A stretch of DNA of 64,000 nucleotides from Thermaerobacter subterraneus DSM 13965 (GTDB lineage Bacteria > Bacillota > Sulfobacillia > Thermaerobacterales > Thermaerobacteraceae): the NCBI RefSeq assembly GCF_000183545.2, contig NZ_JH976535.1, forward strand, positions 797,890 to 861,889. The letters are read 5' to 3'. Shown here piece after piece: positions 31,821 to 35,954 of this stretch. Positions within the stretch are counted from its first letter, which is position 1. Each line of letters opens with the position of its first letter. A program made the position numbers and the translations under genes. The notes beneath the pieces are model-generated. The model was not told where the DNA came from and ran no database searches. It was given only the letters and a program-made list of their open reading frames with translations.

Positions 31821-33104
31821 TCAGGCGCCGTGGGCAAGCCGGGGTGCGGCCCCGCTCTCTTGCTGGCGTTCCTCCAGCACCTGGGCCGCCAGCCGCGCCA
31901 GGGCCTCCTTGCTGACGAACTCCCGCCGGTCGGCCAGGGCCTTGAAGCGGCGGAACACCTCGCGGAAGGCGTCCTCGGGCAGGCTGAAGCCCAGGCGCTC
32001 CAGCTCGACCCGCACGGCGTGGCGGCCGGAGTGCTTGCCCAGCACCAGCTGGGAGCCGCCGGCGCCCACCGCCTCGGGCCGGATGATCTCGTAGGTGAGG
32101 GGATTCTTGATCACCCCGTCCTGGTGGATCCCCGACTCGTGGGCGAAGGCGTTGGCCCCCACCACCGCCTTGTTGGGCGGAACGGGCACCCCGGTCAGGC
32201 GGGAGACCACCTGGCTGGCGGGAACCAGCTGCCGGGTGTCGACCCCGGTGGTGGCGCCGAAGACGTCGCCCCGCACGGCCAGGGCCATCACCACCTCTTC
32301 CAGGGAGCAGTTGCCCGCCCGCTCGCCGATGCCGTTGATGGTGCACTCCACCTGGCGCACGCCCACCCGCACCGCCGCCAGGGCGTTGGCCACGGCCATG
32401 CCCAGGTCGTCGTGGGTGTGGGCGCTGAAGACCACCCGGTCCGGCCTGGGCACCCGGGCCATCACCTCCTGGAACATCTGGGCGTAGGTCCAGGGCGTGG
32501 CGTAGCCCACGGTGTCGGGCAGGTTGATGGTGGTCGCCCCGGCCTCGATGGCCGCCGCCGTCACCTCGGCCAGGAAGCCCACGTCGCTGCGGGTAGCGTC
32601 CTGGGCGGAGAACTCCACGTCCTCGCAGAGGGACCGGGCGTAGCCCACCATCTCCTCCACCAGCCGCAGCACCTGGTCCTCGGTCATGCGCAGCATGGCC
32701 TCCAGGTGGATGGGCGAGGTGGAGACGAACACGTGGATCCGCGGCCGCCGGGCGTGGCGGATGGCCGCCCAGGCCCGGTCGATGTCCACCGCCGCCGTTC
32801 GCGCCAGGGCAGCGATGGTGGGACCATGGACCTCCGCCGCGATGCGGCTCACCGCCTCGAACTCGCCGTCGGAGGCGACGGGGAAGCCGGCCTCGATGAT
32901 GTCGACCCCCAGGGCCGCCAGCCAGCGGGCCACCTCCACCTTCTCATCCACCGTCAGGGCGACGCCGGGCGTCTGCTCGCCGTCCCGCAGGGTGGTGTCA
33001 AAGATCCGCACCCGGTCCCGGTCGAACCCGGCGTCCCCGCCGTAGCCCGAGCCGGCGGTGCTCGCCATGGGGGTCCGCGTAACCTCACCAACCCCGTCTG
33101 CCAT
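31821..33104 (-). CDS. leuA: 2-isopropylmalate synthase lacking the regulatory domain
   Basis: 427 aa, ATG start 8 nt after GAGGGAGG. DRE-TIM metallolyase: the DTTLRDGEQTPG signature near residue 40, metal ligands in HTHDDLGMAVAN, then HESGIHQDG and LGKHSGRHA of subdomain I/II. The protein stops at ~ALARLAAQVLEE plus a short tail. Typical bacterial LeuA (~510-520 residues) continues with a ~110-residue C-terminal LeuA dimer domain that binds leucine, and no trace of it is found in the 148 nt before leuC. It condenses acetyl-CoA with 2-ketoisovalerate, likely without leucine feedback. A homocitrate- or citramalate-type activity is a less likely reading given the operon. Confidence 0.9.
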   Translation of the reverse strand: MADGVGEVTRTPMASTAGSGYGGDAGFDRDRVRIFDTTLRDGEQTPGVALTVDEKVEVARWLAALGVDIIEAGFPVASDGEFEAVSRIAAEVHGPTIAALARTAAVDIDRAWAAIRHARRPRIHVFVSTSPIHLEAMLRMTEDQVLRLVEEMVGYARSLCEDVEFSAQDATRSDVGFLAEVTAAAIEAGATTINLPDTVGYATPWTYAQMFQEVMARVPRPDRVVFSAHTHDDLGMAVANALAAVRVGVRQVECTINGIGERAGNCSLEEVVMALAVRGDVFGATTGVDTRQLVPASQVVSRLTGVPVPPNKAVVGANAFAHESGIHQDGVIKNPLTYEIIRPEAVGAGGSQLVLGKHSGRHAVRVELERLGFSLPEDAFREVFRRFKALADRREFVSKEALARLAAQVLEERQQESGAAPRLAHGA

Positions 33105-33172: not shown

Positions 33173-34288
<1,116 letters not shown>

Positions 34289-34390
34289 GGTGCTCCCTCC
34301 CATCCTTGGTTACGCCTTTCGCTCTCCTGGACGGTGGGGCCGGGGTTCCGGCGGGGATCCATCCCGGACCGTGCCGGTGGCCGGCACCGC

Positions 34391-34999
34391 TCAGGGGCCG
34401 GATCCCGCGGCCAGGGCGGGGGAGAAGGCGCCGGCCCCGGAGGGGAGCGGTTCCTCCTCCCCGGAAGGCTCCCAGGAGGGCCCCGGCGTGCCTGCAGGCG
34501 CTACGACCGCTGCCGCCAGCACCTGCGAACCCCGCGCCAGGGCCGCCACCCCCGTCCGCATCACTTCCACCGGCCCGAACTCGCGGGCCAGGCCGAGGAA
34601 GGCGTCGAGTTTGGCGGGGTCGCCGGTGACCTCCAGCACCAGGGAGCGCGGGGCCACGTCGACCACCCGGGCGCGGAAGACCTGGGCCATCTGGAGCAAG
34701 TCGGCCCGCCGGGCAGGATGCTCCAGCAGCACCTTGACCAGGGCCAGTTCCCGCCCCACCGCCCGGGACGGTTCGGCCACCTCGACGCCGGCCACGTCCA
34801 CCAGGCGGGCCAGCTGGGCCGCCAGCCGGTGGGCCCGGTCGGCCGGTTCGTCCAGGACCAGGTTGACGCGGACGAACCCGGCGGGCCCGGCGGGGCCGGT
34901 GGCCAGGGAGCGGACCCGGTACCGGCGGCTCTCATAGACGCCGAGGATGCGGCGGAGGACGCCGGGCCGGTCGGCGGCCAGCACCATGACGTGGATCAA
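34391..34999 (-). CDS. ilvN: Acetolactate synthase, small regulatory subunit
   Basis: 202 aa from TTG 34999, just after AAAGGAGGTGA. An N-terminal ACT domain (residues ~2-75, starting HVMVLAADRPGVLRRILGVYESRRY) binds the feedback valine in homologues. The C-terminal ALS_ss_C domain covers ~85-165. A Pro/Gly/Glu-rich tail of ~30 residues ends the protein. It activates and feedback-regulates IlvB. It is the first gene after the double riboswitch/T-box leader, while ilvB is eight genes downstream, an uncommon separation. Confidence 0.93.
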   Translation of the reverse strand: MIHVMVLAADRPGVLRRILGVYESRRYRVRSLATGPAGPAGFVRVNLVLDEPADRAHRLAAQLARLVDVAGVEVAEPSRAVGRELALVKVLLEHPARRADLLQMAQVFRARVVDVAPRSLVLEVTGDPAKLDAFLGLAREFGPVEVMRTGVAALARGSQVLAAAVVAPAGTPGPSWEPSGEEEPLPSGAGAFSPALAAGSGP

Positions 35000-35050
35000 G
35001 GGTTCACCTCCTTTCGCCGGCCCGGGGCCGGCCAGCCCCGCTGGAGGGCT

Positions 35051-35107
35051 GGAAAAACCAAGGCGCTCTTCGCCCCGGGCCCATCGGGCCGGGGGCGAAG
35101 AGCGCCG
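35051..35107 (-). terminator. T-box-controlled terminator before ilvN
   Basis: On the minus strand GGCGCTCTTCGCCCC pairs with GGGGCGAAGAGCGCC (arms about 35106-35092 and 35076-35062), with extra C/G pairing in the loop, followed by TTGGTTTTT. It abuts the T-box sequence, whose pairing with uncharged tRNA would form the alternative antiterminator. Confidence 0.88.
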
Positions 35108-35164
35108 CTTCGCGGTACCACCCCGGTTGCCGCCGCCTCGCGGCGGCGGCCTTGGCGGGTGGCG

Positions 35165-35278
35165 GCGGGCGGAACTGCGGGTCGCCGGTGTCGCCGGCGT
35201 ACCGGTGTTGCCGGTATGCCGGTGGCCCGGGCCGCGGGTATCCCGTTTCCCGGTGTCCGGGTGTGCCGGTGTCCGGGC
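35165..35278 (-). repeat. Degenerate ACACCGG-type repeats inside the T-box leader
   Basis: Minus-strand sequence between stem I and the antiterminator is made of imperfect ~9-11-nt units such as GGACACCGGCACACC, GGACACCGGGAAAC, CACCGGCATACCGG, CAACACCGGTACGCC and GACACCGGCGACC. They look like repeat expansion by slippage in a region where T-box leaders normally carry stems II, IIA/B and III. Confidence 0.6.
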
Positions 35279-35610
35279 CGCCACCCTCTGGTTAACGACG
35301 GCCTCCTGGACCGTCCCGGCAGGGCCCTCCGGCGGGAAGATGCCGGCCGGGCGCGGGGGACGGGGGCGGAGACCGCCGGATCCGGCTAGGGGCCTGGGGG
35401 CCCTTCACCGGAACGGCTCCAGGGCGAGTTCCCCGGTTCCTCGGCGCCGGTTTACACCAGCCACCGGCTCTCTGCAGCCGGGCTTACCGGGTACTGCTCC
35501 CCTTCACGGCCGCTGAACTGACCTTGGGCTGTCAACCTGGCCGGGCGTCGCCGCCGGGCACCCCCTGGCGCCGCCTGGACCGGCCAGGGCAAAGGGACAA
35601 CGGCGAGAGG

Positions 35611-35669
35611 TAATAAGAAACCCCGAGCGGCACAGTCGCCAACCGGGGTTGGGAACCTGCCGCTCGGGG
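35611..35669 (-). terminator. Riboswitch-linked terminator in the ilv-leu leader
   Basis: On the minus strand CCCCGAGCGGCA (35669-35658) pairs with TGCCGCTCGGGG (35632-35621) around a 25-nt loop, followed by TTTCTTATTA. The 5' arm is also the 3' part of the ykkC aptamer (P3 strand CCCC), so aptamer folding and termination are mutually exclusive. The + strand also reads as a hairpin with a CTTTTAT tail, but no + strand gene ends here. Confidence 0.82.
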
Positions 35670-35868
35670 CTTTTATCCCCACGGTGTCCCGCCGGCGGAA
35701 CCGGCGGGTTGCGCCGCTTGGTCCAGTCCACCGGCGGCGGGCCGCTTTCCGGAGACCGTTGAGACCGGTCTCCCCGCGACCCGGATGGCGGGTCCGCCAG
35801 GTCCCCGGAACCCCGGGGACGCAGTGGGCCGCCACAACGCCGGTGCGGAACCCTAGGCGCACTTCCCA
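35658..35868 (-). promoter_or_regulatory. ykkC-family riboswitch, probable ppGpp-sensing subtype
   Basis: Minus-strand leader RNA holds the conserved ykkC elements in order: CUAGGGUUCCG (within 35856-35845), GACUGGACCAAG (35728-35717), and ACACCGUGGGGAUAAAAGCCCC (about 35687-35666) with the P3 hairpin GGGG/CCCC. Supporting pairings: P1 GUGCGCC with GGCGC-A-AC (35862-35856 and 35715-35708), CACCGGCG with CGCCGGUG (35845-35838 and 35736-35729), and a perfect P2 hairpin at 35708-35688. Family knowledge: ykkC subtypes sense guanidine (1), ppGpp (2a), PRPP (2b) or nucleoside diphosphates (2c). Location ahead of branched-chain biosynthesis genes points to ppGpp. Ligand assignment is by context. Confidence 0.85.
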
Positions 35869-35926: not shown

Positions 35927-35954
35927 ATTATAACACCGGCTACGGGGGTGTCAA
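35927..35954 (-). promoter_or_regulatory. Consensus sigma-A promoter of the ilv-leu operon
   Basis: On the minus strand TTGACA (35954-35949), a 16-bp spacer and TATAAT (35932-35927): perfect matches in both boxes. The predicted transcription start is near 35920, about 55 nt before the riboswitch P1 stem, giving a leader of roughly 920 nt before ilvN. Confidence 0.9.

Follow-up and report, generated by a model that had tools for sequence, protein, structure and literature searches.

Organization of the leader

In the 64,000-nucleotide stretch of the Thermaerobacter subterraneus DSM 13965 genome analysed here (the window), the minus strand between positions 35000 and 35960 constitutes the leader of an ilvN-ilvC-leuA operon, in which an aptamer of the ykkC family and a leucine T-box are arranged in tandem, each with its own terminator. 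The main features are the following:

35927-35954, minus: promoter TTGACA-16-TATAAT, driving the leader
35650-35868, minus: ykkC subtype 2a (ppGpp-type) aptamer, assigned from an alignment of 24 homologues and from covariation
35610-35669, minus: riboswitch terminator, 35669-35658 pairing with 35632-35621, then UUUCUUAUU
35360-35516, minus: T-box stem I, with specifier CUC (Leu) at 35428-35426 (RF00230, 64.4 bits, E 2.4e-13, gathering score 93)
35058-35147, minus: T-box sequence GGGUGGUACCGCG and second terminator (35078-35058) (RF00230, E 0.0021)
34391-34999, minus: ilvN, acetolactate synthase small subunit, TTG start
33173-34303, minus: ilvC, ketol-acid reductoisomerase
31821-33104, minus: leuA, 2-isopropylmalate synthase

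The promoter matches the consensus at 12 of 12 positions and is the sole promoter-like site in the leader region, where shuffled sequences average 0.0 such sites. The first gene directly after the leader is ilvN; ilvB is absent between the two, so the large subunit of acetolactate synthase must be encoded elsewhere.

The leucine T-box has been recognised from a stem I with its specifier, a T-box sequence and a competing terminator, with GAACUC and GGGUGGUACCGCG kept in all four congeners. Both RF00230 matches lie below the gathering score, as a long linker divides the T-box RNA, and a scan of the whole window with Rfam 15 returned zero families at gathering score, even though the window contains both a complete T-box leader and an aptamer of the ppGpp type. 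T-box stem I is separated from the T-box sequence by a long (209 nt), hypervariable segment (35151-35359, minus), which measures about 122 nt in T. marianensis (G001) and 320 nt in the congener G003.

PMC9481103 describes a ppGpp riboswitch followed by a T-box(Leu) as an AND gate and lists 15 examples. When compared to these tandem leaders (PMC9481103, PMC5912903), the T. subterraneus leader has the same order of elements, separate terminators and leucine and valine genes, and the only difference found lies in the sizes of its variable segments. The collected set contains 31 loci at which a T-box sequence follows an aptamer, the Leu specifier having been recognised by pattern mainly in the host family. 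The 3' strand of P3 doubles as the 5' arm of the riboswitch terminator, which makes aptamer and terminator mutually exclusive, as expected of an ON switch, and predicted core pairing drops from 0.92 to 0.54 (37 C) once the terminator is included. Ligand binding would presumably stabilise the aptamer and prevent the riboswitch terminator, after which uncharged tRNA-Leu would prevent the second one, so that full expression would require both signals.

Identity of the aptamer

The aptamer elements, with helix names following PMC6031431, are:

35868-35863 with 35655-35650, minus: P0
35861-35856 with 35715-35710, minus: P1
35852-35848 with 35724-35720, minus: P1a
35708-35688, minus: P2 hairpin
35684-35660, minus: P3
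35716, minus: C, equivalent of residue 49 (subtype 2 marker)
35664, minus: A, equivalent of residue 96 (equivalence taken from our own alignment)

In the alignment (24 homologues, 38 pairs, arms trimmed beforehand), the ykkC core helices P1, P2 and P3, together with P0, are accompanied by 137 cells with changes on both sides of a pair against 55.5 +/- 5.7 after shuffling, and by a covariation score of 0.360 against 0.150 for shuffled data. Paired cells amount to 88%, compared with 30-51% when the partners are slid by 1-3 columns, and P0 itself is 97% paired with three pairs changed on both sides. Residue 49 is a pyrimidine in subtype 2 and A in guanidine-I riboswitches (PMC6031431); its equivalent is an invariant C in 24 of 24 homologues. 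Residue 96 is G in PRPP aptamers (>97% conserved) and absent or A, C or U in the ppGpp type (PMC6031431). Among the 24 homologues its equivalent, which depends on the alignment, is A, T, C or absent and never G, and therefore fits ppGpp rather than PRPP.

The ligand is thus probably ppGpp, a signal of starvation, judging from the conserved residues, and the gene context agrees, with the branched-chain amino acid genes ilvN, ilvC and leuA downstream. A guanidine-I riboswitch shares the P1, P2 and P3 family fold but is disfavoured by the score of the RF00442 model (17.2 bits, gathering cut-off 63), by C rather than A at the residue-49 marker, by the presence of P0 and by the lack of guanidine genes. 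A PRPP riboswitch (subtype 2b), which has the same fold including P0, is disfavoured by A instead of G at 35664 and by the lack of purine genes. With known ppGpp riboswitches (subtype 2a) the aptamer shares the P0-P3 fold, the subtype 2 pyrimidine at residue 49, the non-G residue 96, the overlapping terminator and the downstream branched-chain amino acid genes; what differs is the P1b arm, 117 nt here and usually about 20 nt. An earlier note on this DNA, made from the sequence alone, had described a ykkC aptamer with an enlarged peripheral arm, which can now be given more exactly as subtype 2a with an enlarged P1b.

Predicted structure of the P1b arm

P1b forms the distal end of the P1-P2 stack and lies past P1a, the docking site of P3 (nomenclature of PMC6031431). 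Its elements in T. subterraneus are:

35729-35845, minus: enlarged P1b arm, 117 nt, with closing helix 35845-35838/35736-35729 and two predicted branches
35801-35820, minus: tip hairpin of branch A, perfect 8 bp, GUCCCCGG/CCGGGGAC, whose basal pair is disrupted in the closest relative
35751-35773, minus: tip hairpin of branch B, perfect 8 bp with a 7-nt loop, GGAGACCG/CGGUCUCC
35786-35799, minus: small alternative hairpin, whose bases pair into the branch A stem in the minimum-energy fold

The closing helix comprises 8 bp between CACCGGCG (35845-35838) and CGCCGGUG (35736-35729). The arm and all the hairpins named in the earlier note are present on the minus strand. The one in the middle (35787-35798) allows only 4 bp, or 5 bp at -6.6 kcal/mol if extended to 35786-35799, and is an alternative only: it is absent from the minimum-energy fold, in which the branch A stem tipped by 35801-35820 is formed. 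Because the bases of the middle hairpin join this stem, the predicted arm consists of a closing helix and two long branches, not of three hairpins side by side.

The whole arm (z-score -4.8) and its interior (-3.5 to -4.1) fold more stably than shuffled sequences, and z <= -3.5 is reached in 1.1% of 1278 windows from the same 64 kb. For the four Thermaerobacter species, arm interiors gave z-scores of -4.1, -3.7, -2.8 and -1.8. A three-way junction is predicted for four of four Thermaerobacter arms, but about 30-50% of shuffles give one likewise, and it has been rejected as a conserved shared topology. An Rfam scan for an RNA nested in the arm gave chance-level matches only.

Arm length among relatives

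A covariance model search yielded 116 matches in 81 of 154 genomes of the class, one of them in the T. subterraneus genome itself. Arms were parsed between CCG and GGACC, giving lengths about 5 nt greater than that of the closed arm, and the parsed length in the class has a median of 21 nt and a 95th percentile of 99 nt (n=128), T. subterraneus ranking third of 128. In a phylum-wide sample of 72 correctly parsed aptamers the arms measure 12-51 nt with a median of 19 nt, a single length of 136 nt (L179) having been excluded as a parsing error on reading the sequence. The two medians bear out the view that a typical ykkC arm is a single short hairpin. Within the class set, only two genera reach an arm length of 80 nt, Thermaerobacter and genus g34 of family f7; in Thermaerobacter the arms span 84, 116, 117 and 153 nt between the closing pairs (four of four species examined). 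Because only the 3' half of a long-arm aptamer is aligned by the covariance model, the counts may miss some very long arms elsewhere. A metagenome-assembled genome of the same family, ZC4RG37, of thermophilic compost origin, has an arm of 23 nt.

The g34 aptamers form a second, independent set within subtype 2 of ykkC, and their P1b arms are also long (91-112 nt; loci L135:912, L132:920, L129, L130 and L123 in genomes G036, G065, G066, G064 and G067). A putative SNF-type sodium-dependent symporter lies downstream, as seen by eye at two loci. Unlike the Thermaerobacter arms, those of g34 share sequence (e.g. GGCAGAGGCAAACCGGTAC), and a conserved accessory domain is therefore possible in that genus.

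Sequence drift and conservation of the arm

In sequence, the arm drifts about as fast as spacer DNA. Relative to the congeners G002, G001 and G003, identity is 100, 98 and 95% in the 3' part of the core and 100% throughout in its 5' part; in the arm it is 90, 56 and 54%, and in spacers of the same leader 93-94, 56-62 and 57-63%. Arms of different Thermaerobacter species are no more similar to each other than shuffles are, except for the pair T. subterraneus (G000) and G002, and the arm sequence is present only in these two genomes, as a single copy in the former, being absent from two congeners.

Covariation within the insert, for which only the closest species, G002, could be aligned, is nearly lacking: the stems differ by one compensatory pair (A-U to G-C, in the tip hairpin of branch B), one G-U to G-C change, one G-C to G-U change and four broken pairs. 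Pure random GC drift is nonetheless not quite the right description, since the insert folds better than shuffles. The substitutions between T. subterraneus and G002 preserve the fold to some extent: random mutants of the T. subterraneus arm were as stable as that of G002 in 9.7% of trials, and in 0.07% in the reverse direction. Across the class, the helix at the base is the one part of the arm that is retained: all five basal pairs show changes on both sides, and at least four contiguous basal pairs are found in 77% of class arms compared with 34% of shuffles.

Interpretation of the enlarged arm

The locus is best read as a known ppGpp switch followed by a leucine T-box, in which P1b is a permissive site that has undergone a tolerated, lineage-specific expansion as the whole leader became inflated; a probability of about 0.75 is given to this reading. 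Its simplest form is a general inflation of non-conserved leader segments, P1b being one permissive site among them. The length of the arm correlates with that of the remaining leader, from the aptamer to the T-box sequence, with a Spearman coefficient of 0.89 in 31 tandem leaders and 0.84 after removing Thermaerobacter, shared ancestry being ignored in both values. Within Thermaerobacter, arm and leader are both shortest in one species and both longest in another, and the T. subterraneus leader is swollen throughout, including the linker from T-box stem I to the T-box sequence. Only a few basal pairs of P1b would matter to the aptamer, while the rest would have grown alongside the other non-conserved parts, drifting fast in sequence and presumably kept closed and self-folded so that the core and the terminator stay undisturbed. 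The partly fold-preserving differences between T. subterraneus and G002, and the second genus with partly conserved long arms, are points against a neutral arm. Moreover, the bulk itself could be maintained, given that large arms (84-153 nt) occur in four of four species though three of the sequences are unrelated. It is unlikely, though, that P1b represents an accessory domain, acquired and then retained because of its bulk or fold, whether for co-transcriptional timing or as a protein platform, and evolved twice independently in ppGpp riboswitches.

An added tertiary contact of the arm with the aptamer, the T-box or a protein, one of the two roles suggested in the earlier note, is quite improbable. 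The arm is rare and yet present in every Thermaerobacter species examined, it is more stable than shuffles, and lineage-specific insertions of unknown function have been reported for T-boxes (PMC7583486), all of which speak for such a contact. The arms of the four species, however, have no shared loops, GNRA loop or 11-nt receptor, they are dissimilar and drift at the spacer rate, and predicted pairing is 99.8-100% internal to the arm, pairing with the terminator or T-box accounting for at most 0.2% of it.

The other suggested role, stabilisation of aptamer folding at high growth temperature, is very unlikely on the present evidence. The genus is thermophilic, with an optimum of 75 C for T. 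marianensis (PMC3035304), and the arm is predicted to be still folded at 75 C. Nonetheless, in a nearest-neighbour model, which is blind to tertiary contacts, the mean core pair probability with the arm intact or trimmed to a tetraloop was 0.92 in both cases at 37 C, and 0.82 with the arm and 0.81-0.82 without it at 70 C; with the terminator included, the values were 0.54 and 0.54 at 37 C, and 0.50 with the arm and 0.48-0.50 without it at 70 C. In addition, the T. marianensis arm is the shortest of the four species, the same-family genome ZC4RG37 has a short arm, and a short GC helix would suffice for this purpose. An equally slight chance is given to a role in timing, in which the size of the arm and not its sequence would delay completion of P1 and so affect the order or timing of folding during transcription. 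That all four species have large arms although the sequences are not conserved is consistent with this, as are the non-native intermediates that precede this helix in the folding of the ppGpp aptamer (PMC10687018), but within the genus the length of the arm differs by almost two-fold and tracks general leader length.

An origin of the arm by insertion of a mobile or repeated element, or by duplication of the aptamer core, is already mostly refuted and scarcely credible, as the arm is single copy in the T. subterraneus genome and missing from two congeners, and as its alignment to the core, slightly above shuffles in T. subterraneus (1% of shuffles as high), is unclear in the close relative G002 (16%) and in G003 (40%).

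Implications for ppGpp riboswitches

These results indicate that P1b is a hypervariable and permissive site of the ppGpp aptamer, tolerating from 13 to more than 150 nt while the core remains nearly fixed. This property is useful for searches, in which long arms leave the covariance model aligned to the 3' half only, as well as for construct design and engineering. The Thermaerobacter arm offers a clean natural test of the effect, if any, of a large arm on switching; if it proved functional, a well-studied riboswitch would turn out to have an accessory domain that had gone unrecognised.
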